Shown one piece after another: positions 440 through 22,140 of a DNA stretch of 22,140 nt. A program made the translations under genes and the position numbers. Origin of the DNA: a virus; IMG/VR virus record IMGVR_UViG_3300008954_002830, positions 1-22,140 of that record, one strand, 5' to 3'. Below the pieces are notes generated by a model. That model was given only the letters and a program-made list of their open reading frames with translations. It made no database searches and was not told the DNA's origin. The first letter of the stretch is position 1, and the number at the start of each line of letters is the position of its first letter.

Positions 440-842
440 CCCAGCTAATCTCCCAATCTTTAAAGTCCGCTGCTAGGCAGTCGATTTTGTAATCTTTTCT
501 GCCGCCGTTAATTTCTTGAATCTTGTTCTTTGCAACGTTTCTGATTCCATTTAGCCCGTGAGTTAGTTCTAAATTGCCGTCACCTGTGCCGGCACGGACC
601 ATTGACTCGTTGTGCCAGATGTGCAAATTCATTTGTGAGAGCACAACGATAGCGCGCACCGTATCGGCTGTCAGTTGCCCGTCAGCCGCGTCTAAAATCA
701 TTTGAATGTCGTGGCATATGTCAGAGATTTCCTGAGCATACTCGGCTTTGTGTTCTGCAATAAACACTTCTTTTAACTGTGCGATGGACAAGCGATCCAC
801 CAGTTCTGAAAGTGTGGGTAAATATTTACGCTGATTGCTCAT
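432..842 (-). CDS. Conserved phage-type protein of unknown function
   Basis: 136 residues, starting MSNQRKYLPTLSELVDRLSI. I chose the ATG at 842 because AGGAG sits 6 nt upstream. The frame stays open further upstream, but that stretch falls inside the preceding glycosyltransferase gene and has no ribosome site. The protein is mostly helical, with features such as LDAADGQLTAD, IVVLSQMNLHIWHNES and KNKIQEINGGRKDYKID. It resembles, from memory, small proteins of T4-like marine phages, but I cannot name a function. No signal peptide, membrane span or catalytic motif is evident. It overlaps the upstream glycosyltransferase by 17 nt and the downstream Mpo1-like gene by 8 nt, so it is translated as part of the glycan operon. 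Confidence 0.8.
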
Positions 843-2493
843 TTGTATCTCCTGTAAATTGTAAGAAGTAATTGTGATATTTATTAAAGTTTGTTTGACC
901 AAATACATCTTTGTATTTGAAAAATACGGAGGCTTCTTCTTTACCTCTGGGTTTGCTGTGCTCTTGCGATGTGGATAATCCATCTTCATTATAATAATAT
1001 AATCCTAGCGGAATATCGATCTTCTTAAACTTAGAATCAGCTTCTACCATACGCAAAAACATATCCCAATCGCCTGCATATGACATCTCTTCATTAAAAT
1101 TACCACACTTTTCATGCACGCTTTTTCTCCACATGGGCATTGGGCCTGGGAGGCATTTAATCATGTTTTCAGGGGAGAAATTATTTAAAGAATGTTCATA
1201 TTTAGTCCCATTGGAAGAATTCGCCTCAAATGTTTCATTTGCAACTGTCGTCTGATAACAATCCGCATATACGAGATCTACATCTTCTGTGAAGTGCAGG
1301 TGTTTAGCCATTATTTCGAGGTGGTTGTGGGCATGGCGATCGTCCACGCATGTTTGCGCAAAGAATTCGCCTGTCGCCATATCAAGAGCCATATTTTCGG
1401 TTTCCATCACAGTAGCTCGATAATCCAACCTTTTATAGATTACATTTTTATGCTTCTTCATAAATTTTTCTATATGCTCTCGCTCGTTTTCCGGAGAGTT
1501 TGCGTCGATAATGATTAGTTCGCATTGGTCGAAAATGGTTTGATTTTCCATATCTTCTAAAAATTTTTCAATATACTTTTCGCCGGCGTATAGCGGACAG
1601 AAAATAGTAATTTTAGGCAAAACTGCTGAGGGGTGATAATCGATAGTGTGATCGCGCACCAAGGTGAGCCAACACTCTTTAAGGTTTTGATTGTTCTGTC
1701 GAATAAAATCTAGCATCTCTTTTCCTTTTAAATGAAAATAGTCTTCGCCGGCGACACCAATCAGATTGTTGGTAACCAATTTTGCTCCCAGAATACGGCC
1801 TTCAACAGAAAAGCGATTATAGGTTTCAAGCCATTGAGGGAAAAAGATTAAAGTTTCTATTTTTGCTATATTTTCGATGAACTGTTCAAACGGCTGCTCT
1901 TGAATAAACTCGAATTCAATATTTTTATGTTTACAGTATGCGATAGCTGCCGGCATCCCTTTGTTTTTATTATGGGAATACAATACCCCATATTTAATAG
2001 TTTTAGGTGTGTCAAGGTTCTTCTCTAATATTGCTAGCTGCTCTTCAGTCCAAATATTGCCACTAAGGCTGACAATATTATCTAGTAAAAGATTGCGTTG
2101 TACAACGCTAGCGTGTTTTTTGCTTTGGCATAGGACTGCGAGTGCATTCTTGTAAAATTCTTTATTTTGAATTTGCGTCTCTGGCGCCAGAAAATTCGCA
2201 TATAATGACGGATTATTAGATTTAATGTATTTATGATCGTGTTCAAATATCACATAGGTTGTATTCGCTAGCGCAATCTTAGACTCTTCGGATAATTGAA
2301 AAAAATTAGCTACCACAAAAAACTTGTCACTATTGTTCTGAATAAATTTGGGGATAACAACCTGCGACTTAATCGCGGCGATCTTAACATCAGGAACCAA
2401 GAGATGCAGAAGGGCATCGTTACAAAACTCTGCACCGCCGCGTACTTCATTTAGAAAAAAATCAGATATAAAAACTATGTCAGCATTAATCAT
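826..2493 (-). CDS. Two-domain glycosyltransferase (GT-B-like part plus GT2/GT-A domain)
   Basis: 555 residues. The N-terminal part (about 1-270) begins MINADIVFISDFF with GGAE, and contains YGVLYSHNKNKGM, like a diverged GT-B glycosyltransferase; the usual EX7E motif is not clear, so this part may be degenerate or bind acceptor. Residues 294-500 are a GT2 GT-A domain: KITIFCPLYAGEKYIE, a DxD-like VDDRH near 383-387, and GDWDMFLRM near 474-482, the usual acceptor/base region. GT2 enzymes transfer a sugar from a nucleotide donor. The start is ATG at 2493, overlapping the upstream stop by 8 nt; a TTG three codons earlier is less likely. It lies with two GT4 genes and an epimerase, and probably helps build or decorate a surface or virion glycan (inference). 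Confidence 0.85.
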   Translation of the reverse strand: MINADIVFISDFFLNEVRGGAEFCNDALLHLLVPDVKIAAIKSQVVIPKFIQNNSDKFFVVANFFQLSEESKIALANTTYVIFEHDHKYIKSNNPSLYANFLAPETQIQNKEFYKNALAVLCQSKKHASVVQRNLLLDNIVSLSGNIWTEEQLAILEKNLDTPKTIKYGVLYSHNKNKGMPAAIAYCKHKNIEFEFIQEQPFEQFIENIAKIETLIFFPQWLETYNRFSVEGRILGAKLVTNNLIGVAGEDYFHLKGKEMLDFIRQNNQNLKECWLTLVRDHTIDYHPSAVLPKITIFCPLYAGEKYIEKFLEDMENQTIFDQCELIIIDANSPENEREHIEKFMKKHKNVIYKRLDYRATVMETENMALDMATGEFFAQTCVDDRHAHNHLEIMAKHLHFTEDVDLVYADCYQTTVANETFEANSSNGTKYEHSLNNFSPENMIKCLPGPMPMWRKSVHEKCGNFNEEMSYAGDWDMFLRMVEADSKFKKIDIPLGLYYYNEDGLSTSQEHSKPRGKEEASVFFKYKDVFGQTNFNKYHNYFLQFTGDTNEQSA

Positions 2494-3748
2494 ATTCCAC
2501 AACTTGTTCTAAAATATCTTGCCATTCATCTTCATCAGATACTCCCATATATTCCAGTGTCGCGTCGACCATGGCTTTATATTGTTTTTCTTGCGCGAAT
2601 CGTTCTTGTACAGTTTCAGCAAAAGCGCAGGAATTCAAGGCAACGCTGTCTCTGTTTTGTGCTTTAAGATCTTCGTAGCACAGCCTCATTTGTTCTTTTG
2701 CCGATTGTTCGCGTGCATAAGCCCACATAGAATCAGGAACTATAACACCATCCCAAACCACTTCGGTCTGTACTGGCGCCAAATCAAACCCTACGTTATA
2801 AAAATTTTGTTTCCCCTGTTCATCGACCAAAAAATCCAACTGTCCGGACCACCCAGTAGCAACCACAGGGGTACCAGAGTAAGCTGCTTCAAAAATAGGG
2901 AGGCCGAATCCCTCTCCATGAGCTAAACTAATAAGAGCAGAAATTTGAGGATGCACTTGAAGCGAGTGCATCTCTTCATCCGACATGTCACCATGAAGAA
3001 GATAAACACTGCACTTTCGGTCCGGATATTGATTTATAATTGCTCTAATGTTGCCGAGAGTATGCTCTCGGTCCATCAAGCAATTTTTAGCTGTATTGCC
3101 TTTGAGCACTAATCCAACTTCGTCATCCTTAAACTCTTCAATAAACCATTTAATGGTATTGATCATATTTTTGCGCGGGCTTAATTGGGCTGCCGCAAGA
3201 AAATTGATTTCATATTCTAATTCTAAATTTACTTCTGGCAATGTTTCAAACTTTTTAGCTGGGTAGTTTACCGCCTTAATCGGACGTTCAAGCTTTAATA
3301 CCAACTCTTGACCGGTATCGCTGTTGACTGCTTGATATTGAGTGTGTTCATAGACATTCTTAGAATGGTGAGATACTACTATGATCCCATTCATTTCATT
3401 GCCTTTTTGAATCCACTGGTGAGCTACTTTTGTGGTCTCTATGCCGGCGGTATAGCCAATATTAATGGGAGCCATGGGTGCCCATTCATTAGGGATAGTG
3501 ACTTGAAATGAAACATCAAATTGTCCGCCTGATTGCATATAGAGAATAGTTTTTTCGATCATCTGGTTAATCCATCTGATTTCTTCGGTATCTTCACCTA
3601 TCCATGAAGTTTGTCCCCATGTTAAGGGTTGGATATAAATATCAAACAAATCTTCTCTGTCTCGCAACGCTCGTATGGCAAATCGCGATTGTTCACCGTA
3701 TCCAGATCGTGTGAGGAGCGGGCCCTTAAAAATTAGTTTCTTTTTCAT
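2486..3748 (-). CDS. Glycosyltransferase family 4 (GT-B fold)
   Basis: 420 residues. The N-terminal domain starts KLIFKGPLLTRSGYGEQSR with the glycine-rich donor-side loop found in GT4 enzymes. The C-terminal domain carries HGEGFGLPIFEAAYSGTPVV at 277-296, the EX7E motif (Glu279, Glu287) that contacts the nucleotide-sugar donor. QLSPRKN at 188-194 is the usual start of the second Rossmann domain. The last roughly 50 residues are acidic and helical. The start codon overlaps the preceding stop (TAATG), with an AGGTG ribosome site in the preceding gene, so the two GT4 genes are translationally coupled. Sugar and acceptor cannot be read from sequence. Together with the neighbours it points to stepwise building of an oligosaccharide. 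Confidence 0.92.
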   Translation of the reverse strand: MKKKLIFKGPLLTRSGYGEQSRFAIRALRDREDLFDIYIQPLTWGQTSWIGEDTEEIRWINQMIEKTILYMQSGGQFDVSFQVTIPNEWAPMAPINIGYTAGIETTKVAHQWIQKGNEMNGIIVVSHHSKNVYEHTQYQAVNSDTGQELVLKLERPIKAVNYPAKKFETLPEVNLELEYEINFLAAAQLSPRKNMINTIKWFIEEFKDDEVGLVLKGNTAKNCLMDREHTLGNIRAIINQYPDRKCSVYLLHGDMSDEEMHSLQVHPQISALISLAHGEGFGLPIFEAAYSGTPVVATGWSGQLDFLVDEQGKQNFYNVGFDLAPVQTEVVWDGVIVPDSMWAYAREQSAKEQMRLCYEDLKAQNRDSVALNSCAFAETVQERFAQEKQYKAMVDATLEYMGVSDEDEWQDILEQVVEYD

Positions 3749-5031
3749 TATGCCACCTCTAACAAGTGCCAGCGCTCATAGCCTTTTCTATTTTCCCAGG
3801 AGCCATATCTCTCTACTATGCTATCCATTAAATCTACCCAACTCTTTTCAAATGTCTCAAAATTATAGTTTTTTCTCACATGTTCTCGACCTTGAATAGA
3901 CATTTTCTTATAAGTTTTGGGACTCAGTTCAATCGCCTTTTTAAGTGCATCAGTAAAGTCTTTTTGTGAAATACGATCCTCATAAATATAAGGTACTTGG
4001 AGAGATCCGATAATTGCCTTGGATGCTGGTTGCAGTCCAAAACCAAACCAGTTCTCACCATCAGTTACCTGTTCTTGAAGTCCTCCGGTCATATTGACAA
4101 TAATAGGGGTTCCGCATGCTAGCGATTCTAGTGTTGCTAGTCCGAAACCTTCTGCATCTGAAATATTAATTGTGAAATCTGCTGCATTATACATCCCTCC
4201 TAGATCGTGAGGAGAAACTTTATCAGTTGATAGCAATATTTGTCCATCCGCAATTCCTAAGTGCTCTATAATATGAGGCAGGTCTTGTCCATGGGGATCC
4301 CGCGCATCTGTATGCATGAGAAGAGTGGCTTTATCGTGTCCTACCTCATCCAAAAATTCTTTAAACCACCAAATCAAAGTACCCGACTGCTTTCTTCGGG
4401 CATTTCTGTTATTCCAAAAAAAGATCTTTTTATCCGGATTTTTATGATTTATAGTGGAGTCCAATATTCGTTGTTTAATCACCTCTTTGCGCGCGAGATC
4501 CTCATCTGTTTTAAATTTATAAAAAGGCTCCGTATGAACTGCATGAGGTAAATAATGATTTTCTACATCTGGCGCAACGGCGGATACAATCTGGTGCGTT
4601 ACTTTCGAAATACTAACAACCACATCCGTAGACTTATAAAATTTTGCATTGAAATGTGGGGGGGGGAAGTTGTCCCATACATGATAATAGATCATAGGAA
4701 TATGGGGGCGAACTTCATTTTCAATTTCCCATAACCAACCATAAAACCGTGGATCGGTCATAAACCAAAGTATGTCCGGCTTCTCCTTTTGAAGTACCGA
4801 ACGAATTATTTCATGAGTGCCATAGCCATCTACAGGGAAAATGCGCCACTCGTCCCCGTGTCCCTCCACTTTTTGAATATCATAATTCGGGTGCTGCATA
4901 GCGCCCCCCAAACATATAAATTCATAGCGCCCTGTTTTACGGAGCGCTTCAATAAAATATTTTGTCTGAGTTCCGACTCCGGAGGGTGATAGCGGATGAT
5001 CGGATAATGTTAAAATCTTGGTCTTTTTCAT
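3748..5031 (-). CDS. Glycosyltransferase family 4 (GT-B fold)
   Basis: 427 residues. The N-terminus KILTLSDHPLSPSGVGTQTK is the first GT-B strand with its glycine-rich loop; NNRNARRKQSGTLIWWF at 207-223 opens the donor domain; and AEGFGLATLESLACGTPIIV at 293-312 is the EX7E motif (Glu294, Glu302). The start is set by AGGAA just upstream of ATG at 5031. Its stop overlaps the next GT4 start. Residues 122-126 (FPPPH) are encoded over an uninterrupted run of nine C on the coding strand, a slippage-prone tract (see findings). It is the first glycosyltransferase of the operon and follows the nuclease gene by 8 nt. Specific sugar and acceptor are unknown. Confidence 0.92.
   Translation of the reverse strand: MKKTKILTLSDHPLSPSGVGTQTKYFIEALRKTGRYEFICLGGAMQHPNYDIQKVEGHGDEWRIFPVDGYGTHEIIRSVLQKEKPDILWFMTDPRFYGWLWEIENEVRPHIPMIYYHVWDNFPPPHFNAKFYKSTDVVVSISKVTHQIVSAVAPDVENHYLPHAVHTEPFYKFKTDEDLARKEVIKQRILDSTINHKNPDKKIFFWNNRNARRKQSGTLIWWFKEFLDEVGHDKATLLMHTDARDPHGQDLPHIIEHLGIADGQILLSTDKVSPHDLGGMYNAADFTINISDAEGFGLATLESLACGTPIIVNMTGGLQEQVTDGENWFGFGLQPASKAIIGSLQVPYIYEDRISQKDFTDALKKAIELSPKTYKKMSIQGREHVRKNYNFETFEKSWVDLMDSIVERYGSWENRKGYERWHLLEVA
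4658..4666. repeat. Homopolymer of nine G/C inside a glycosyltransferase gene
   Basis: Nine consecutive G on the + strand, read as C on the coding strand in the codons for Phe-Pro-Pro-Pro-His. The reading frame is intact at this length. Runs of about eight or more G/C are classic slipped-strand sites in phase-variable glycan genes of bacteria. Whether this one varies cannot be told from a single sequence. Confidence 0.9.
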
Positions 5032-8850: not shown

Positions 8851-8926
8851 TGGCTGGGGCAGCAGGACTCGAACCTGCAACTTCAACATTAACAGTGTCG
8901 CGTTCTGCCAATTGAACTACACCCCA
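8851..8926 (-). tRNA. tRNA-Asn (anticodon GTT)
   Basis: A 76-nt cloverleaf with encoded CCA. The acceptor stem TGGGGTG pairs with TGCCCCA (five Watson-Crick and two G-U pairs), the D stem is GTTC/GAAC, the anticodon stem CGACA/TGTTG with loop CTGTTAA, the variable loop AAGTT and the T stem GCAGG/CCTGC around TTCGAGT. The discriminator base is G, as expected for Asn. Its 5' end is the base right after the stop codon of the upstream gene, and its promoter lies inside that gene. A phage-borne tRNA may support translation as host supplies fall, or match phage codon use. Confidence 0.97.
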
Positions 8927-9187
8927 TTACACTACTTTCAATATATCATCATCAAACACAAATGTCAAATCTTTATTTGCTTTTTTAAATGGTATGTTCC
9001 ATTCTTTTCTTAAAATCTCAATCTCTTTTTGACATATTGGAGTGGCATGCCAACCTGAATATCCGGGCCAGTCAATACGGTTGCCTTTTCTTGGTTCAAC
9101 GATAATTCGTTCTAGTAATTTAACATGTATTGGTGAGATAGCATCCCCAGCGCGAGATTTAACTAAAACAATGTCACCTTTGGTCAC
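8927..9187 (-). CDS. Small SH3/KOW-like protein
   Basis: 86 residues. The opening TKGDIVLVKSRAGD is a beta strand with the GDxVxV pattern of small SH3/KOW barrels, followed by a basic segment (VEPRKGNRIDWPGYSGWHAT) and a charged tail. Start is GTG at 9187, overlapping the preceding TGA as GTGA; the ribosome site is weak, so translation is probably coupled. The last codons double as the promoter for tRNA-Asn, which may constrain its C-terminus. Function is unknown; other small GDxV-type proteins occur in this window at 10972-11229 and 19924-20187. Confidence 0.75.
   Translation of the reverse strand: MTKGDIVLVKSRAGDAISPIHVKLLERIIVEPRKGNRIDWPGYSGWHATPICQKEIEILRKEWNIPFKKANKDLTFVFDDDILKVV
8940..8968 (-). 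promoter_or_regulatory. Sigma70-type promoter for tRNA-Asn, TTGACA-N17-TATATT
   Basis: Minus strand. TTGACA (8963-8968) and TATATT (8940-8945) are 17 nt apart, inside the last 14 codons of the upstream gene. Expected start is near 8933, about 7 nt before the mature tRNA 5' end. It may also serve the 158-residue gene beyond. Confidence 0.8.
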
Positions 9188-9678
9188 TTTTCAGAAACTT
9201 TCGCTTGGTGACGGACTGGTGGTTTTTCATCAAATTGTCGCACATTTTTGACTAAATCTGAAGAACTTGCTAGTTTTTTGTCGCCGCCAATCCCCCACAA
9301 TAATTTAACACCCAACTGTTCGCAAACATCTTGCTCGGGGGTATTACTTCTTCCTCTATCACCACCATTCGCAAAAAAGTCCGGCTTGTGGCGTTGAATT
9401 GCTTCACAAACAGTACCATCGCTGTCGTCAACAGAATCAACCAAAATAACACCTTTGATTGCATTAAGAATTTCTGCTCTCGCTTTGAAATCCATAAATA
9501 CGAAACCCTTCTTTTCGAAAAGCCAATTATCCGAGTTTGCGATCACAATAACATCTCCGTGTTCTGCCGCTGCTCGAATTAAACGGATATGACCCGCATG
9601 CACTGGGTCAAAACCTCCGGAAACCATCACAGTAGGAGTCTCCTCTTCCTTATCAAATATGTCTCGATGAATCGCCAT
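9184..9678 (-). CDS. Cytidylyltransferase-like nucleotidyltransferase (HxGH)
   Basis: 164 residues. GGFDPVHAGHIRLI at 21-34 is the nucleotide-binding HxGH motif (His27, His30) of the cytidylyltransferase-like superfamily, followed by FEKKGFVFMDFKARAEIL, a charged substrate segment, and SSSDLVKNVRQF near the C-terminus in the place of the ISSTxIR motif. The pattern VMVSGGFDPVHAGH with ADGDV-like spacing resembles the HldE/RfaE second domain and GCT/FAD-synthetase relatives, which activate sugars or cofactors with CTP or ATP. Exact substrate is uncertain. AGGAAG precedes the ATG; start and stop overlap or abut neighbours. It could supply an activated sugar to the glycan genes, or act in cofactor metabolism. 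Confidence 0.88.
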   Translation of the reverse strand: MAIHRDIFDKEEETPTVMVSGGFDPVHAGHIRLIRAAAEHGDVIVIANSDNWLFEKKGFVFMDFKARAEILNAIKGVILVDSVDDSDGTVCEAIQRHKPDFFANGGDRGRSNTPEQDVCEQLGVKLLWGIGGDKKLASSSDLVKNVRQFDEKPPVRHQAKVSEK

Positions 9679-9949: not shown

Positions 9950-10849
9950 TTATAAAAAAACATAACCGACTTCAATAAGTTCGCCAGGATCTGGGGTAAA
10001 ATCTAAATATACTGTGTTTGTTTCTGGCAAATAATACCACTCTTCTATTTCTCGACTGTTTTTATAAACTACTATGCTATCAATTAGTGGAATCTTGGTA
10101 AGATTTATATAGTTAATCTCGCCAACTAAAAAAGTACTGTTTGAGAGCCATGTTGCCCAATCACTACAAATATCAATCGCGACTTTTCCATAATAAGCAA
10201 CTAAGTCGATATATTTATATCCAACTGATTGAACCCAAATAGCTTCACATTCGCCATTTTCGGGCTGAACAATTGCCACAACATCATGTTGGACCAGTTC
10301 AAACTTTTGAACCAACCAATCGTGAAATATATCTGTTGGAATTGATCCTTGTTCATCCTCATCTGAAATAAAAATTATTAGCTTGTCTGCGTCGTCTCTA
10401 AAAAAGAGTGTTCCTTCGGGTGTATTGGCTACAAAACCATACATGGATTCAAACCCTTCTTCTCTCCAATCTTCTCCAAGGGTATAGGGTGCTAAAAGAA
10501 AATCTATCGGATCCGATGTATAATCATATGGACCCGCGAAATAAGGCATCGTTAACCCAGAATTAATGAACCCAATTCTGTAATCTGTCGTGATTGCTTC
10601 GATGTCTTGTCGGAGGAGTTCTACACCAGTGCTAACCTGCTGATAATTGTCATTCATGGAGCATGATGTATCCAAAACGACTAAAACATCTAATTTCTCA
10701 GGGGGTGACGGTTGAATTAAAGAATCTATCGCCACCTCTGTTGGCTGTATCTCTTCTATGATTTCATATTGCATGCCATAATCTGGACCGCAACTTAAGA
10801 CTCCGACTAATACGCTTAATAACAATAATTTAAGTTTTTTAGTGATCAT
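9950..10849 (-). CDS. VWA-domain lipoprotein
   Basis: 299 residues from the ATG at 10849. An earlier in-frame ATG at 10897 would add 16 residues in front of the signal and is less likely. MITKKLKLLLLSVLVGVLSC is a lipoprotein signal with lipobox Cys20. Residues 53-64 (LDVLVVLDTSCS) hold the VWA metal site DxSxS (Asp60, Ser62, Ser64), and FISDEDEQG around 150-160 the later acid of this domain. VWA domains bind protein partners through a metal ion; proteins of this style, with lipid anchor and a LVVLDxSxSM VWA, are frequent in deltaproteobacteria. A surface or periplasmic lipoprotein on the host would be expected. In a phage it might block superinfection or remodel the surface (inference). It overlaps the Cys microprotein gene by 11 nt. 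Confidence 0.85.
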   Translation of the reverse strand: MITKKLKLLLLSVLVGVLSCGPDYGMQYEIIEEIQPTEVAIDSLIQPSPPEKLDVLVVLDTSCSMNDNYQQVSTGVELLRQDIEAITTDYRIGFINSGLTMPYFAGPYDYTSDPIDFLLAPYTLGEDWREEGFESMYGFVANTPEGTLFFRDDADKLIIFISDEDEQGSIPTDIFHDWLVQKFELVQHDVVAIVQPENGECEAIWVQSVGYKYIDLVAYYGKVAIDICSDWATWLSNSTFLVGEINYINLTKIPLIDSIVVYKNSREIEEWYYLPETNTVYLDFTPDPGELIEVGYVFL

Positions 10850-10979
10850 CGCAATCGCAAGGGGTATATCCGCAACATGGACATCGAAATTTTTCATCCT
10901 CTTTAATATCTAGTTTACTTGATAAGAAAGGAATTCTTTCCATTAGTGTCTTAATTTTTCTGATTATACGTTTAAGCAT
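10839..10979 (-). CDS. 46-residue CPCC zinc-ribbon-like microprotein
   Basis: A short frame with basic helical N-terminus (MLKRIIRKIKTLMERIPFL) and a C-terminus FRCPCCGYTPCDCDDH. Five cysteines at 33, 35, 36, 41 and 43 plus His46 form a compact Cys cluster like a minimal zinc ribbon. ATG at 10979 overlaps the upstream stop by 8 nt, and the stop overlaps the VWA lipoprotein start by 11 nt. A second ATG at codon 13 would give 34 residues and fits a transcript from the promoter that lies across the first codons. The ribosome sites for both are weak. The Cys-rich end makes a real gene likely. Function is unknown; regulation of the lipoprotein is one guess. Confidence 0.7.
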   Translation of the reverse strand: MLKRIIRKIKTLMERIPFLSSKLDIKEDEKFRCPCCGYTPCDCDDH

Positions 10980-11596: not shown

Positions 11597-13495
11597 TTAT
11601 TCCACCAAAAGTGGCACCATTTCTCCTGAAAATACTTGTGCATATATTGGCAAACCATCGGGACCTGCGGATAATGTCATCGATAGGTTAAATATCGACG
11701 CTCCACCCCAGCCTGCCGGCAATCCAGCCAAAGTCGATGGCGAAATGGTGAAGTTCCCACCATCATCAAGTCTACATATTACTTGCTCATCTCCGACCAT
11801 CGCAGAAAAGAAGACATCATCACCTGTGCTATTGCCATAACTTACCAATAGAGGCGTGCCATCCGCCGTCAGACCAGACGCAGAAAAGTATACTTGGTCA
11901 GGAACCGTTGCAAAATTTGCAACAGCCCAGGAGCCAAAATACGAGCTAAAGTCTCCATCGGCTTGAACGCTAATATTTTGTCCTTGCTTGAAATCCGGAC
12001 GATCTGTCGAAATGCGGTCTCCCTCCATTTCATGAGAATCCCAAACGTAAAAGGGCAGATTTCCTTCAAGACTTTTCTCCATTCGATAAGAACGATAGTC
12101 ATTTGAAAGTTCGACCCAAGTACCTGCTGAGCGGGCACTATCGGGAATACCAGGGAAAGCACTCTCTGGAAACATAGAAACAATTTCTTCATTGGTTCCG
12201 CTCCAGCACTCGCCTACCTCTAAGCTATCCCAAGGATTCTCGCAATATGAAGTTGGTCCCGGCGGCTCCCAGAAGACAGCAGAAATTCCATCGGCAGGGG
12301 CACTTTCAGGATCGTTGGCATCTACAATAGAATCATAGTTTCCAACATTAATTGCTCCCGCAAGTCGACAGACATCAATCTGAATGTCTGGGATTGGCTC
12401 ACAATCAGCCGCGGATGAACCTTCACTATCCATAAAGATAGTCCCCTTTGTCTTGTGCCAATCTTGACCACCCACAAAAGTGCGGCCGGTAAAATTGACA
12501 TAATCGCCAACCATGATGCTGCATTGATACTCACCATCGTCATTTGTAACCGCGGTGGAGGTCGTCTGACCGCCGGCACACGTCACATCGGCTCCACGTA
12601 CCGGAAAGCCCTGAAAGTCGATTACACGACCTTCTGCACACGATGGGACGAATCCCATATCGCAGTTCCACCACGAAAAGTGTGGAGCTTCAAAAACAAA
12701 ATACAACTGATCACCAGCGGCGCTGACTGTTCCAGTTGCTTCTTCGATCCAAGTTCCCTGGATAGGATCAAAAGACCATGTATTTTGAATATCGCCCGCT
12801 TCCATGTGGAGTCCGTCTGGAAGGCTCCCATTGGTGATTGGAATACGCAGGGTTGCTGGCTTATCCATGTCAATCGAAAGCTCTTGTCCGTCTTCTCCGA
12901 ATAATGACACATCAACCATTCCGTAAGAAACAAGCTGAGAGTCTCCACTATTAGAAATAGCAGACAAATCGCGGGGCGCGCCAGAAAGCTCATCAGTTGA
13001 CGGGTCAACATGAGTAACTTCCGCGGTCACATCACCATTATAACGCTGTCCTGTTGATTTGTCGGTGAAACTGTTAGGCTCGAAAGCTACAGTCGTGTTC
13101 TCAATGATGAAATAGGATTCGTCAAAACTTGAGAACGTCTCGACCCCATCAACCGACAGAAGCATTGCGTTGGATGCGACAGTTTCCCAAGTCATCAATG
13201 AAGTGACCTTATAATTAGACGCATAGCCGCGCTTACTAAACTTAAGCACGATATCGGATGCAGGCTGCACCTCTAAAAGAGTATACGAGCCATCGGCCGA
13301 TGTGGTTGTGGTGAGTTCGCCGGTCGATACTGATACATCTGCAAGAGGCGCGCCAGTTTCGTCAGTGACAAAGCCACCAATTCGACCTTGGGGGTCGAGG
13401 GGGGTGACGGCAGCGCTATCGCCGCTGTCGGGGGTGTTGTTGTCCTTGTTGCATGCCGGAACAAGCAACAAAGGCAATAAAATTAATCTATTCAT
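11597..13495 (-). CDS. Large surface lipoprotein with carboxypeptidase-regulatory-like repeats
   Basis: 632 residues. MNRLILLPLLLVPAC is a lipoprotein signal (Cys15) followed by a low-complexity DNNTPDSGDSA spacer. Residues 38-110 form a carboxypeptidase-regulatory-like Ig-type domain (GRIGGFVTDETGAPLADVSV ... ADGSYTLLEV), and a second, Cys-containing copy lies at about 285-345 (EGRVIDFQGFPVRGADVTC ... NDDGEYQC). Between and after are beta-rich segments; a Cys-rich region ends near 430. Such domains bind or display glycans or proteins on the outside. This reads like a host lipoprotein of a deltaproteobacterial type. The gene is clearly richer in G+C than its neighbours (37/60 in 12541-12600 against 21/60 in 15001-15060), suggesting transfer. 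AAGGAAGG precedes the ATG; a 40-residue membrane protein overlaps its start. Confidence 0.85.
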   Translation of the reverse strand: MNRLILLPLLLVPACNKDNNTPDSGDSAAVTPLDPQGRIGGFVTDETGAPLADVSVSTGELTTTTSADGSYTLLEVQPASDIVLKFSKRGYASNYKVTSLMTWETVASNAMLLSVDGVETFSSFDESYFIIENTTVAFEPNSFTDKSTGQRYNGDVTAEVTHVDPSTDELSGAPRDLSAISNSGDSQLVSYGMVDVSLFGEDGQELSIDMDKPATLRIPITNGSLPDGLHMEAGDIQNTWSFDPIQGTWIEEATGTVSAAGDQLYFVFEAPHFSWWNCDMGFVPSCAEGRVIDFQGFPVRGADVTCAGGQTTSTAVTNDDGEYQCSIMVGDYVNFTGRTFVGGQDWHKTKGTIFMDSEGSSAADCEPIPDIQIDVCRLAGAINVGNYDSIVDANDPESAPADGISAVFWEPPGPTSYCENPWDSLEVGECWSGTNEEIVSMFPESAFPGIPDSARSAGTWVELSNDYRSYRMEKSLEGNLPFYVWDSHEMEGDRISTDRPDFKQGQNISVQADGDFSSYFGSWAVANFATVPDQVYFSASGLTADGTPLLVSYGNSTGDDVFFSAMVGDEQVICRLDDGGNFTISPSTLAGLPAGWGGASIFNLSMTLSAGPDGLPIYAQVFSGEMVPLLVE

Positions 13496-14433: not shown

Positions 14434-14775
14434 TGGTGGAGACGGCGGGAGTCGAACCCGCGTCCACGACAAGTCAAAATTCAAGTCATTCACAAGTTTA
14501 TCAGTTTTTGTATCCCCTAACTGAAAGGGTAGACAACTATAATCTAATGCTTATTGCCATATTGCATTAAATGGTTTTGATTTTTGCAACTTGTCTGTTG
14601 GTTTGCTTAGATTGGATTGAAGGCTCTAAGCGCCTCCCGATTATGCCGCTAGTGCGTAATCGAATGCAACGTTATCGTTGGCAGTTGTTTTATTTATAAC
14701 ATGGTTTAAGTCTTTGTTATCGTTGACTACTTGCACTATTCTTTCTTCTTATCCTGTCGAATCCGTTTCGTCCCC
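14434..14775 (-). ncRNA. ssrA: Transfer-messenger RNA (tmRNA)
   Basis: 342 nt. The 5' end GGGGACG pairs with CGTCTCC near the 3' end (six Watson-Crick pairs and the usual G-U at position 3), the signature CGGATTCGACAGG follows, and the T arm is GCGGG-TTCGACT-CCCGC before A-CCA. The tag is read from GCC at 14682. tmRNA with SmpB frees stalled ribosomes and marks the product for proteolysis. Its first 40 nt overlap the end of the 81-residue gene upstream. tmRNAs are known in some large phage genomes; otherwise this would be a host gene. No promoter of consensus quality lies directly upstream; a TATAGT lies about 25 nt before, and a full consensus promoter at 15272-15300. Confidence 0.96.
14641..14682 (-). 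other. tmRNA tag reading frame, ANDNVAFDYALAA
   Basis: Reading from GCC at 14682 gives ANDNVAFDYALAA then TAA at 14641. The AND start and the YALAA end are the normal tmRNA tag layout; ALAA at the end is the ClpXP/ClpA degradation signal in bacteria. The tag therefore looks functional and would mark proteins for host proteases. Confidence 0.95.
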
Positions 14776-15331: not shown

Positions 15332-16135
15332 TCAGAATTCTAAATCTAGCTCTTCTTCGCCGGCTGCTTCCTCTTCTCCACCGAGTTCTTCCTGGTCAGA
15401 CTTAGCATCTTGATAAGCTTGATTTGTCGGTTCTTCCACTCCGGGTTCCAGTTCCTTTTCGAATTTGTCGAAATAGAGCTTCAAGTTGGCGATTAAGTAA
15501 TCATAAAATAATTCTTGGTCTTCTGGGTTAGAAAGTAATTCGTAAGCATCAATAATTGACGCTTGAACTTTTTTAAAAGCATTATATGCCACATTGCGCC
15601 CGGTTTCGTCTGCCCCCTCAACCCCAAAGTCATCTCGCGGGTCTTCTGGCTCTTCTTCGTCGGCCTTTTCTGCATCGGTACGAATATCAATAAACTTTTC
15701 TTCATCGTCGCCTACTTCTATGTCGATTTCTTCATCAAGTTGATCAGCTTCTGCTCCTTGTTCGCCGGCATCGTTATTTGCTTCAGCCGGAATAAGAGTA
15801 TCAATTACTGCGTTAATAATATGCGATCGAAAGGAGGTACGTTGTTCAGGATCTGTAGTTAAAAGTTTATAATCGGTCTGTAAAACGGGAATGATCTTCT
15901 TTAAAAGATCTTCTAAAACATTAATTCCAGTCGACTTGTTTGGAGTAGGTTCGTTATCAGGGACCGCAGCTTCTTGTAAATGTTGCACCTCTATTTCGAT
16001 CAAATCGCGTATAATAGTTCGAAGTCGATCTTCTTCTGCTAATAAGATTTTTTGCTCATCTGTTCTTTTCTGCTTGACAATTTCGACAAGTTGTCTTATA
16101 TTCTCTCTTAGGATTTGCTCTTGCGCTTCGTTCAT
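15332..16135 (-). CDS. Very acidic structural or scaffold-like phage protein
   Basis: 267 residues. A helical N-terminal part (QEQILRENIRQLVEIVKQKR, LLAEEDRLRTIIRDLIEIE), a block GINVLEDLLKKIIPVLQTDY KLLTTDPEQRTSF, a long acidic stretch (about 120-175), TGRNVAYNAFKKVQASIIDAY, a FYDYLIANLKLYFDKFE block and a Glu-rich end. From memory, proteins with the TTDxxQRxSFRxHI and DYLxxNLxLYFDKxE blocks recur beside ligase-like/nucleotidyltransferase genes in marine T4-like phages, often called structural. The acidic make-up would also suit a prohead core or assembly chaperone. ATGA overlaps the fusion gene stop. An antisense promoter-like site lies in its 5' end. Confidence 0.8.
   Translation of the reverse strand: MNEAQEQILRENIRQLVEIVKQKRTDEQKILLAEEDRLRTIIRDLIEIEVQHLQEAAVPDNEPTPNKSTGINVLEDLLKKIIPVLQTDYKLLTTDPEQRTSFRSHIINAVIDTLIPAEANNDAGEQGAEADQLDEEIDIEVGDDEEKFIDIRTDAEKADEEEPEDPRDDFGVEGADETGRNVAYNAFKKVQASIIDAYELLSNPEDQELFYDYLIANLKLYFDKFEKELEPGVEEPTNQAYQDAKSDQEELGGEEEAAGEEELDLEF
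16074..16102 (+). promoter_or_regulatory. Possible antisense promoter, TTGACA-N17-TATATT
   Basis: On the + strand, TTGACA (16074-16079) and TATATT (16097-16102, 5/6), 17 nt apart, inside the acidic-protein gene. A transcript would run antisense to the end of that gene's neighbour, the ligase-nucleotidyltransferase gene. By chance such a match is rare, but it falls in coding sequence, so it is tentative. Confidence 0.45.
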
Positions 16136-18354
16136 TTTCGAATACCTCTTTCCATAATTAGTGTTAATACTTCGTCAACAACAGAAAAATCCATAGTTTC
16201 TTGGTATGGTTTCAATTTCTTCTTCTTTTTTTTTATGTCGCGCTTGCCAACCGGCGCCGCATATCCTGCGACAGCACCACCGCCGGCGGCTGAGATTTCT
16301 TGTAATCCAGGACTGAAGCCAAGAATAGACAGGACATCGAAAAGGTTTTTTTCGCCCGTAAATTCTTCTAATTCATCCATGACTTCCTCGTATTGTCCAA
16401 AAAGATCTCGAAAATCTGTTGCACTAAATGGATTGCCATTAGAACGCATCAAAGGCTCTACAGCAAATTGGTTAATAGGTAATATTCTAACACCCTCTTT
16501 GACATATTTCTCCGCTTGATCATACCGGCTGACATCGTTCCCTTTAGTAGAAGCGCCTAGGATTACATTCGTTCCTGCTTCTAAGGGCCCATCCTTTCCG
16601 ATAAAATCATATGTTGCAGTAATCGGAGATGCGTGAGGGGAGATTTCTACTTCAACGTTGGGTAAATGTCGCGTATACACATCCCAAATCTTTTTAGAGT
16701 CTTCGGCAGTAATTTCTCGACCATTAGGGAGTTTTCTACCGGCTTTTAAAGGTGATGAGATCAATACTACCACTTTGTCCGCCTTATTAGCGTATTCTTC
16801 TACCATCGCTAGGTGTCCTGCATGCGGCGGCTTAAATGCACCAGGGACAAGCGCAATTGTCTGATCCCCAGCCATAGAGCCGGCAGGATCAGTATCTTCG
16901 TTGTCGACTAACTCTACATCTGCGTCCTCCTCTTCTGCCTCCACAATAATTCCGGCGCTATAGCGCAGAACTGTATTATAAATCATCTCTTGCGCAAAAT
17001 CTTGCTGAACGATTTCAATAATAGGAATGCCAGAGAGAATATCGTTATAAACGAGAGTTGGTGGCTTCTGATACTTGTGTTTAGCATCTTTTATTTCTCT
17101 CAGCCAACTATTAAGGGTTTTGGTGATCTCACGATCTTTTGAGACTTTAATAGTGAAATTCTGCGACAAACCTTCCGTAATGGAAGGATGATCCCCATGT
17201 GTAGATGCGAGTCCTTGAACAATAAAATCTCCGGTCAATTTAACCAAAAAATTCTCCAAACCCCTCAATACGACGCCTTCGTGTGCAGCGAGAGATCCGG
17301 CTTCGCTTGTGAGTGCGTTTTTGACCGCCTGTCCCAAGAGTCGTGTAGCATGATAAAATATACCACCATTAATAGCATCTGTAATATCGTTGGGATCTTC
17401 TAAGTATTCGCTTAAAGATTCTCCATGTTCTTGTGCACTATTGAGGACAGCCAAGTAGATATCCTTACTAAGTGCATTGGCTACTTTTCTCTTTCTATTT
17501 TTCTTTTCATTTGCGCTTATAGTTACTTTTCTCTCTTGAGGGTGTTCTACTTTTTGTAGCCATTGTCGCAAAGTTCCCGTTTGTATATTATTGGGGGAAA
17601 AACGGATGGATATTGGTGTTTCTAAAGTTTTTTCTAAATCAACAAACTCCATTTCCGGATTAAACTCAACAGACACGTCACCATAAACTTCAAAACCCTG
17701 TGTGATAGCAATCGGCCTAACTTTTTCTATAAGACTTCGTAAAGCTTTATGATTATAGGGAATTTCAATGCCGCCGGCTTTAATGGGTTTGCCATCGGCG
17801 CCAATTGGCCGCGGCGCGCCAGGGCGATCCATGGAAGTCCCAGCGCGTATACGCCATGGCTGGGCCTTCTTTTCGTAAAATTGGTTGATGCCGTGGATAG
17901 CTAAGATATTTTTATCATATTCTTGCACATTAGACTTGCCTTCTCCGGCAGATCTGATATATTCGGTATTAAAATATTTGGTTGGATCCTCCCACAATCC
18001 AAGCGTTTTTAGTTCCGGCTCAATTTCGGGAAGAGCCGTATTAAATATATCTAATAGTGTTTTGATAGCATGGGGCATGCCATGTGTTGCTCCCCATTTT
18101 TCTAAGGCGCCTGCAGCATCTAAACCTATAACTGAAGAAATATCACTAGTTCCGCGATCCATGCGGAACTCTTTTTCGCCACTTTTGTTGGTGATAAGCT
18201 TAAAGCTAGTATTAATGCCATCCCATTTTACACTACCTTCAATTTCGCCAGCATGCAGACGCAATGCTGCCGTATTGATGTAATCGATAAGATCTTGACC
18301 ACTTTTAACTTCGTCAACATCGAAAGGGTGGGCCATGTGCCCTGGTGTGCCCAT
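16132..18354 (-). CDS. Fusion of ligase-like nucleotidyltransferase (KxDG) and HxGH adenylyl/cytidylyltransferase
   Basis: 740 residues. The N-terminal part carries the covalent-nucleotidyltransferase motifs of DNA/RNA ligases and capping enzymes: KWDG at 43-46 (Lys43 the likely AMP-bearing lysine), FNTEYI at 128-133 (Glu131), EGVVLR at 359-364 and VKLTGDF around 371-377. A linker (about 465-495) is acidic. The C-terminal domain has LVPGAFKPPHAGHL (His511, His514) and FSATDFRD at 643-650, the HxGH and ISxTxxR-like motifs of NMN adenylyl- and cytidylyltransferases. The end is Gly/Ala-rich then Lys-rich (about 706-713). From memory, similar ligase-like proteins occur in marine T4-like phages. 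Substrates are unknown; RNA repair, RNA capping or NAD metabolism are options. GAGGG lies 6 nt before the ATG, and the ATG overlaps the upstream stop. Confidence 0.85.
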   Translation of the reverse strand: MGTPGHMAHPFDVDEVKSGQDLIDYINTAALRLHAGEIEGSVKWDGINTSFKLITNKSGEKEFRMDRGTSDISSVIGLDAAGALEKWGATHGMPHAIKTLLDIFNTALPEIEPELKTLGLWEDPTKYFNTEYIRSAGEGKSNVQEYDKNILAIHGINQFYEKKAQPWRIRAGTSMDRPGAPRPIGADGKPIKAGGIEIPYNHKALRSLIEKVRPIAITQGFEVYGDVSVEFNPEMEFVDLEKTLETPISIRFSPNNIQTGTLRQWLQKVEHPQERKVTISANEKKNRKRKVANALSKDIYLAVLNSAQEHGESLSEYLEDPNDITDAINGGIFYHATRLLGQAVKNALTSEAGSLAAHEGVVLRGLENFLVKLTGDFIVQGLASTHGDHPSITEGLSQNFTIKVSKDREITKTLNSWLREIKDAKHKYQKPPTLVYNDILSGIPIIEIVQQDFAQEMIYNTVLRYSAGIIVEAEEEDADVELVDNEDTDPAGSMAGDQTIALVPGAFKPPHAGHLAMVEEYANKADKVVVLISSPLKAGRKLPNGREITAEDSKKIWDVYTRHLPNVEVEISPHASPITATYDFIGKDGPLEAGTNVILGASTKGNDVSRYDQAEKYVKEGVRILPINQFAVEPLMRSNGNPFSATDFRDLFGQYEEVMDELEEFTGEKNLFDVLSILGFSPGLQEISAAGGGAVAGYAAPVGKRDIKKKKKKLKPYQETMDFSVVDEVLTLIMERGIRK

Positions 18355-18611
18355 TAGGAACCCTCGTTAAGGCTCTCTTCTAAGATATTAAGCCTTTCCT
18401 CTAAAACTTGGAGTTCGTTTTGCATTCTCCGAGCAGATTTGCGCACTTCACGCAAATGATTATTAGCGAGCTTTAAACGACGCTCCTCTGTCATAGATTT
18501 TGGTTTAATATTGGAGATAATTTCTTGGAGACCTTGAAGATAGGTAAAAATGTTCCTTTCCTCTAGGTTTTCTCCTAAAATAAACCGGTTCCAATCTCTA
18601 TTCAAAGACAT
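18354..18611 (-). CDS. Small coiled-coil protein
   Basis: 85 residues. It begins MSLNRDWNRFILGENLEERN, a Trp/Arg/Phe start somewhat like the leader of the HAD gene at 21353, then NIFTYLQGLQEIISNI and a long charged helix (about 40-82, RRLKLANNHLREVRKSARRM, NELQVLEERLNILEESL) with leucine/isoleucine heptads, a coiled coil. AGGA lies 9 nt before the ATG. Its stop overlaps the fusion gene start (TAATG). It probably dimerises or binds a structural partner. No enzymatic motif. Confidence 0.8.
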   Translation of the reverse strand: MSLNRDWNRFILGENLEERNIFTYLQGLQEIISNIKPKSMTEERRLKLANNHLREVRKSARRMQNELQVLEERLNILEESLNEGS

Positions 18612-21352: not shown

Positions 21353-21928
21353 TTAAAGTCCGAGTTCCTGCAGTATTGACAGTGTTTTTTCTAGGTCTGA
21401 ATCTCGATGCAAAATAGCTATTCCGCCGTGCTCCTCCCAAGGAATGGTGTTTTTTGTCCAGTCATCGATCAAAATACTATTTTTATTGGCCCAGTTATAT
21501 TTCTCTCTCGACATAAAAACTTTTTGCGGTGGAGGATTTAAATTATTATCAATCCAGGCTTGCTTTCCAATCTCTGAGCCATACCCCATAGGAGTGGTAA
21601 GAATATTGGGATTGTAGGGAGCAATCGCAGCCCATAATTCAGGACCATTCGGCATCCAGGGCAAATCCTCCCAAAACTCCGCATTATGTTCTAATTCTTT
21701 GTACATATAGTTTCTGACCGCTGTATTAGATCTAATGTCCTCAGCGGTGATATAATCGCGTCCAAGCTCTTCCCCTAACTCGGAAGCCTTTCCGCTTTTT
21801 AAGTCGCTTGTGATGTGTTCTACGGCTCCTAATTCGAAGTCTACAAGCACACCATCCATGTCACAGTAAATCTCATACTCGTGTTCCTCATTTAAAAATC
21901 GTCGCCAATTTTCCATTAAAAGCTTCAC
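21353..21928 (-). CDS. HAD-superfamily 5'(3')-deoxyribonucleotidase-like protein
   Basis: 191 residues from the GTG at 21928, which overlaps the preceding stop (GTGA); an ATG at 21970 in frame lies deep inside the upstream gene. It begins MKLLMENWRRFLNE, a leader I recall at the start of several marine-phage proteins. YCDMDGVLVDFE at 21-32 is the HAD motif DxDG (Asp23, Asp25), and ILIDDWTKNTIPWEEHGG is the later acid motif. NT5C-like HADs remove phosphate from deoxynucleoside monophosphates and occur in many phages, where they help adjust dNTP pools. The reaction is inferred from motifs. Confidence 0.85.
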   Translation of the reverse strand: MKLLMENWRRFLNEEHEYEIYCDMDGVLVDFELGAVEHITSDLKSGKASELGEELGRDYITAEDIRSNTAVRNYMYKELEHNAEFWEDLPWMPNGPELWAAIAPYNPNILTTPMGYGSEIGKQAWIDNNLNPPPQKVFMSREKYNWANKNSILIDDWTKNTIPWEEHGGIAILHRDSDLEKTLSILQELGL

Positions 21929-22140
21929 TGGACTTCCACTCCCATGGTATTTAGTCCGCCTCGACTCCATTCGTGATGCATAATATGACCAGTTTGGTTA
22001 TAATCTAGCCAGCCAAGCGCATGGCCAAGCTCGTGTTCTAGAATTCGGTCGGCTTCGCCCCATGTATTTTTAAGCGCAATTTTGGCTTTCAAAATCTCTC
22101 GGGTTTCTCTGTCAATCCACGACGTTGTGGTTGCGAGCGC
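21925..22140 (-). CDS. Metzincin-type zinc protease, C-terminal part (cut by window edge)
   Basis: The last 71 residues of a protein whose start lies beyond 22140. EHELGHALGWLDYNQTGHIM contains the HExxHxxGxxD zinc motif of matrixin-like metzincins, with the Met of the Met-turn (IM) following. The tail is HHEWSRGGLNTMGVEVQ. Metzincins are secreted or surface proteases; in phages they are usually thought to act on proteins of the envelope or virion. The upstream part, including any signal peptide, is not visible. Its TGA overlaps the HAD GTG. Confidence 0.85.
   Translation of the reverse strand, partial: ALATTTSWIDRETREILKAKIALKNTWGEADRILEHELGHALGWLDYNQTGHIMHHEWSRGGLNTMGVEVQ

Follow-up and report, generated by a model that had tools for sequence, protein, structure and literature searches.

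The KxDG/HxGH protein and its domains

We analysed the virus record IMGVR_UViG_3300008954_002830, from a marine T4-like phage, over a stretch of 22,140 bases, referred to here as the window, to which all positions are relative. A minus-strand open reading frame (ORF) at 18354..16132 encodes a 740-residue protein, P0001, in which a KxDG domain is fused to an HxGH domain (ORF and Pfam evidence). An earlier note on this DNA had described a ligase-like domain fused to an HxGH nucleotidyltransferase; its coordinates and protein length are correct, with the gene on the minus strand, and the motifs it named are all present, namely KWDG at residues 43-46 (18217..18228, including Lys43), EGVVLR at residues 359-364 (17263..17280) and HxGH as HAGH at residues 511-514 (16813..16824). 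Four parts can be distinguished, all encoded on the minus strand: a predicted RNA-ligase-type covalent nucleotidyltransferase-like domain (residues 1-384; 17203..18354; AlphaFold2 and VIA), a middle alpha/beta segment (residues 398-470; 16945..17163), an HxGH adenylyltransferase domain of the class of CoaD and nicotinamide mononucleotide (NMN) adenylyltransferase (NMNAT) (residues 497-682; 16309..16866; hidden Markov model (HMM), profile and structure), and a linker with a C-terminal helix of low model confidence (residues 683-740; 16135..16308). BLASTP gave no alignment between the middle segment and the N-terminal domain, which speaks against the former being a duplicate of part of the latter. 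A scan of P0001 with HMMs of defence systems gave no match.

The N-terminal domain has motif I (KxDG) of covalent nucleotidyltransferases and glutamates at the places of motifs III and IV (E131 and E359), the assignment of III and IV resting on order and spacing. Across 89 relatives, K43, D45 and G46 are invariant, as are R67 and G68 of a candidate motif Ia (DRG; 18151..18156) and E131 of a candidate motif III (NTE, N129-E131; 17962..17970), in which N129 is invariant too; E359 and G360 of candidate motif IV and K372 of candidate motif V (KLTG, residues 372-375; 17230..17241) are kept in 97%. Since the active-site residues are this strongly conserved, the motifs are more than a chance occurrence. 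Indeed, KxDG was retained in 15 of 15 loci found with a search pattern that did not include the lysine. E359 and K372 are 13 residues apart, the same spacing as between E227 and K240 of T4 Rnl1. A further N-terminal motif, GHMAHPF (residues 5-11; 18322..18342), is invariant apart from its alanine.

An AlphaFold2 model of residues 1-390 (44 homologues) reached a pLDDT of 93.2 and a pTM of 0.90. The top 50 matches of this model in a VIA search are all nucleic-acid ligases, RNA ligases ranking before DNA ligases, and the best is T4 Rnl1 (3.8 Å over 178 residues), with a Z of 8.9 that barely exceeds the best Z of 7-8 usual for unmatched models. With this modest Z as a caveat, we read residues 1-390 of the model as a divergent RNA-ligase-type domain. 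The earlier note's call of a ligase-like domain is thereby tentatively supported, and neither of the outcomes that it had set against that call, a structure prediction lacking such a fold or loss of Lys43 in close relatives, was found.

Models from both Pfam and NCBIfam recognise the HxGH part above their cut-offs: PF01467 with 24.7 bits (cut-off 21) and TIGR00125 with 31.1 (cut-off 27.7). Its best profile match in the PDB is the archaeal NMNAT 1f9a (E 1.6e-7), and over residues 497-682 a model of the C-terminal part matches CoaD with a Z of 15.9 and NadD with a Z of 13.3. It thus combines the HxGH motif, the second superfamily motif SxTxxR (SATDFR, residues 644-649; 16408..16425), a Rossmann-like predicted fold and HMM matches. 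By sequence and predicted fold, this part belongs to the CoaD/NMNAT-type adenylyltransferase class, in agreement with the NMNAT/cytidylyltransferase-type site proposed earlier. The assignment stops at the class, because the best scores fall far below the cut-offs of the NMNAT and CoaD equivalog HMMs.

Three KxDG families and their domain arrangements

Relatives were collected by scans of IMG/VR, starting with close relatives and extending to two further KxDG families. The window family (signature GHMxHPF, KxDGxN, DRG, NxE, EGxVxR, KxTGxF) has at least 437 relatives in IMG/VR, the EKTDG family (EK[TL]DG, RNK, EGxVF, KLTG) at least 579 loci, and DUF6267 (PF19782; signature KWDGAPA) 201 confirmed loci, with DUF6267-like matches in 469 phage records. 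Relatives of P0001 are thus present in hundreds of aquatic phages. Profile comparison indicates that the window and EKTDG families are homologous (hhalign, 98.2%). No HMM match was found between the N-terminal domain of P0001 and PF19782, and the weak hhalign score of DUF6267 against the window-family domain (7.6%) does not join the two at the sequence level; predicted DUF6267 structures are nevertheless among the best structural matches of this domain (BFVD, E about 1e-5 to 2e-6). The family is unlikely to be a cellular one, since bacterial host genomes gave just four matches in about 85,000 species genomes, all of them in metagenome-assembled (MAG) or "uncultured" records.

The domains are shuffled between these families. 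Locus L002 keeps P0001-like middle and HxGH parts and has DUF6267 in place of the N-terminal domain, locus L001 keeps the N-terminal domain and lacks the middle part, and EKTDG proteins have the HxGH domain ahead of the KxDG domain. The KxDG ORF also contains an HxGH motif at 53 of 80 window-family, 36 of 76 EKTDG and 72 of 80 DUF6267 loci; these counts are lower bounds, many loci being contig fragments. In cyanophage S-SM1, the HxGH gene T4-GC190 overlaps with the gene for T4-GC71, a protein that, like those of DUF6267, matches PHROG 455, and in S-PM2 p139 the latter half of DUF6267 is joined to CTP_transf. KxDG-HxGH pairing, fused or adjacent, thus recurs in aquatic T4-like phages and is not a one-off. 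We consider its repeated fusion, in both orders and in three families, to be strong evidence for a functional link between the two domains.

Some members have further domains. A CCA-adding domain was found in 6 of 76 EKTDG-family loci, some of which also have an HD domain; single ORFs in L022 (3064-7200; 1378 residues) and L202 (1999-7203; 1735 residues) join HxGH, HD, CCA-adding and EKTDG ligase-like domains. Of the 43 proteins of the window and EKTDG families scanned with Pfam, a few have superoxide dismutase, plastocyanin, SET, GNAT, DUF192 or DUF5661 domains in addition to a KxDG domain.

The genes flanking P0001, both on the minus strand, also recur beside or within its relatives. The upstream 85-residue ORF (18354..18611; starting MSLNRDWNRFILGE and ending SLNEGS), which overlaps the P0001 gene by one base, has a homologue adjoining the DUF6267 fusion in L002. 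The downstream gene (15332..16135; 267 residues) gave no match in a search of phages; in locus L015, its relative forms a C-terminal extension of the P0001 counterpart.

Signs of head packaging

Internal head proteins of T4 carry a capsid-targeting propeptide of 10-20 residues that the prohead protease removes by cutting after Glu (PMC5694885). Members of the KxDG families begin with similar stretches (MKTFKQYYNTILNE|GG or MITFKQFLLE|GG), resembling the starts of T4 internal proteins (MKTFKEF...ITE|A and MKTYQEFIAE|A; NC_000866). The residues upstream of the KxDG domain end in [LIVF]xE|G/A in 118 of 119 distinct contexts (60/61, 46/46 and 12/12 by family), which are drawn from related sequences and hence not independent; counted over all positions of the same proteins, the background is about 0.4%. 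KxDG proteins that have no upstream residues start with Met near the place of the junction, as does P0001 (M|GTPGHM), whose GHMAHPF motif stands where relatives have [LIVF]xE|GG. A T4-type prohead protease gene (Peptidase_S77) was found in the contigs of 16 of 19 relatives; a Peptidase_S77 search of the window itself found none.

Published proteomics places HxGH partners in virions of three cyanophages: T4-GC190 in S-SM1 (PMC3037559), ORF154 in S-CREM2 (PMC10665884) and ORF91 in S-SCSM1 (PMC9602691). The N-termini of these proteins are MKKFSAFLNE|A, MKNFSSFLTE|A and MKSFLQFLKE|A, respectively. Together, these sequences and the published proteomics suggest that the phage head brings such enzymes into the host. 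We infer, rather than observe, the packaging of P0001 itself, since it has no propeptide and we found no mass spectrometry (MS) evidence for a KxDG domain.

According to the earlier note, a protein of this kind is not known to have a described role. This holds for the ligase-like half, and the name DUF6267 was not found in the literature that we searched. Related pairings were on record, however: DUF6267-HxGH fusions are already in databases (S-PM2, and PHROG 455, which spans both parts and is annotated as of unknown function), and HxGH partners had been reported in virions. What the present analysis adds is that the fusion is widespread and that there are signs of head packaging.

Several other proteins in these genomes have starts or neighbours of interest. 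In the window, a 5'-nucleotidase-like protein (21353-21970, minus strand; PHROG 2643) has an N-terminus, KLLMENWRRFLNE|E, that resembles a capsid-targeting propeptide, and the SLNEGS end of the 85-residue ORF directly precedes MGTPGHM, so that it looks like an LxE|G junction split by a stop and a start. In Pelagibacter phage HTVC008M (L005 7673-8335), a P-loop kinase-like protein starting MIPFILKE|G is encoded two genes after DUF6267. The S-CREM2 protein gp156 (L275 8013-8726), with a weak NTP_transf_2 match, was detected in virions by MS and lies two genes after the virion HxGH protein.

Elsewhere in the window, on the minus strand, are a tmRNA gene (14434-14775; tag ANDNVAFDYALAA) that overlaps a short ORF in this phage contig, a tRNA-Asn (gtt) gene (8851-8926), and genes for two lipoprotein-like proteins with signal/Cys starts (9950-10897 and 11597-13495), one with a VWA/integrin-like stretch and the other with CarboxypepD_reg domains. 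A search with the whole window against 50,697 phage records found no near relative, only 30-base tmRNA matches.

Possible functions and comparison with known systems

We propose that P0001 is a bifunctional nucleotidyl enzyme from a virion-delivered set that repairs or remodels RNA ends at the start of infection, and we put the probability of this whole proposal at about 0.5. The N-terminal domain would form a covalent lysyl-nucleotide on Lys43, as its predicted fold suggests, and the HxGH domain, to judge from its class, would condense an NTP with a phosphorylated partner, thereby supplying or regenerating a nucleotide co-substrate. Proteins of this kind would be virion cargo of aquatic T4-like phages, released in the relatives from a removable propeptide ending [LIVF]xE|G, as in T4 internal head proteins, and delivered at infection. 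The most likely substrate would be RNA ends, probably those of cleaved tRNA. The earlier note had considered a two-step reaction possible, in which an activated nucleotide is made and RNA is joined or capped, or else a role in handling NAD. We favour RNA repair on two grounds: no folds are closer than those of RNA ligases, and EKTDG-family proteins also carry CCA-adding and HD domains. T4 Pnkp and Rnl1 repair tRNA cut by host nucleases after being synthesised in the infected cell; delivery at infection would suit the same task.

Several observations weigh against this proposal, in addition to the modest Z of the T4 Rnl1 match and the shared ancestry of the junction contexts. Motif V departs from KxK, K372 being kept and the second lysine replaced by Thr (T374, 97%). 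Foldseek alone puts ligases on top at just E 0.035, a Pfam scan of P0001 gave no ligase family and, at E up to 0.1, just CTP_transf_like, and profiles of the three KxDG families found no sequence-level ligase match among solved structures. P0001 starts MGTPGHM, without a propeptide. A loose capsid-targeting sequence (CTS) pattern, a weaker test than the junction, was found in 18 of 72 window-family, 24 of 42 EKTDG and 0 of 80 DUF6267 proteins, with 7.7% of background ORFs also hit. The published virion MS concerns HxGH partners, we found none for a KxDG domain, and the authors of one study caution that co-purification is possible (PMC10665884). CCA-adding domains occur in just the six of 76 EKTDG-family loci and at no window-family locus, and we found no measured activity for either domain of any member in the literature. 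A broader version of the proposal is more tentative, and we would sooner bet against it than for it: that heads of aquatic T4-like phages are loaded with kits of paired KxDG ligase-fold and HxGH enzymes, which the prohead protease would release and which, once ejected, would mend RNA and nucleotide pools ahead of any phage gene expression, some phages adding CCA-adding, HD, superoxide dismutase, plastocyanin or SET domains.

Alternatives would assign the two domains other substrates. An unlikely one, though it has several points in its favour, is that P0001 acts on NAD+: the HxGH domain would be an NMNAT restoring NAD+ depleted by host defences, while the KxDG domain would take AMP from NAD+ and the released NMN would be recharged by its partner. 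Such a cycle is attractive but unproven. LigA, an NAD+-dependent ligase, likewise has a single-lysine motif V. An archaeal NMNAT is the top profile match of the HxGH part and weak NMNAT models also match it, cyanophage homologues present in virions are annotated NMNAT, and phages carry NAD+ salvage systems (PMC9503650); however, the NMNAT equivalog cut-off was not reached, CoaD fits the structure as well or better, and no nicotinamide phosphoribosyltransferase gene was recognised by eye among the ORFs of the window, for which no family search was made. We regard as improbable a virion-carried ligase that mends nicks in the incoming phage genome. DNA ligases do match the fold (Z 5.8-6.3), and DUF6267 adjoins replication genes in cyanophages, but RNA ligases score higher, the CCA-adding fusions point to RNA, and the model ends shortly past motif V, where DNA ligases have an OB domain.

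A little less probable still is a virion-delivered enzyme of host takeover in the manner of T4 Alt, whose KxDG domain would cap RNA or transfer a nucleotide to a target in the host. Capping enzymes have this fold too and are listed by Foldseek, and the HxGH partners are virion-associated; neither an OB nor a triphosphatase domain was seen, however, and there was no specific match. We give least credence to NDP-sugar synthesis, with the HxGH domain serving nearby glycosyltransferases and the KxDG domain as a non-catalytic scaffold. Three consecutive glycosyltransferase-like genes were recognised by eye in the window (826-5031, minus strand), and cyanophage HIGH nucleotidyltransferases have been interpreted in this way (PMC7824862). 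However, a second, separate HxGH gene (9184-9678, minus strand), nearest to heptose-1-phosphate adenylyltransferase (rfaE_dom_II, E 1e-14), is better suited to that role, no variation is seen in the KxDG domain's catalytic residues, and the fusion recurs where no glycosyltransferases adjoin.

Our proposal of RNA-end repair gives a testable chemistry to the large unexplained phage families counted above, whose HxGH partner reportedly belongs to the core genes of cyanophages. If true, it would account for the recurring "NMNAT/cytidylyltransferase" proteins of cyanophage virions, and ligase-type enzymes would join what phages deliver with their DNA.

P0001 shares with T4 Rnl1 and other RNA ligases a predicted nucleotidyltransferase core, KxDG, EGxV and a lysine 13 residues past the motif IV glutamate; unlike them, it is fused to an HxGH enzyme, has K-x-T rather than K-x-K in motif V and has some 200 residues separating candidate motif IIIa from candidate motif IV, and it does not match them at the sequence level. 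DUF6267, PHROG 455 and the cyanophage pair T4-GC71 and T4-GC190 likewise set a KWDGAPA domain beside or fused to HxGH (S-PM2, S-SM1, L002), and L002 has middle and C-terminal parts in common with P0001; the N-terminal domain of P0001 differs in that HMMs do not place it in DUF6267 and profile comparison links the two only weakly. The KxDG domain of the EKTDG family (Microcystis phage Mel-JY01, WWT39297; huge-phage records LR756508 and LR756500) is homologous to that of P0001, and HxGH accompanies it on one polypeptide in Mel-JY01 and close by in LR756508; this family differs in placing HxGH first and, in some members, in its HD and CCA-adding domains. The bifunctional NMN adenylyltransferases NadM and NadR also have HxGH in a two-enzyme protein, but their partner is a Nudix or kinase domain rather than a ligase fold (PMC9503650). 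Polyvalent proteins are multi-enzyme and predicted to be injected, as we propose for the relatives of P0001, some of which have many domains, but no ART, MPTase or ArdC hub was among the Pfam families found, and P0001 has just two recognised domains. Finally, T4 internal proteins and the relatives of P0001 have in common a short propeptide ending xxE|A/G, whereas P0001 itself, which has none, begins near the place where that propeptide would end.

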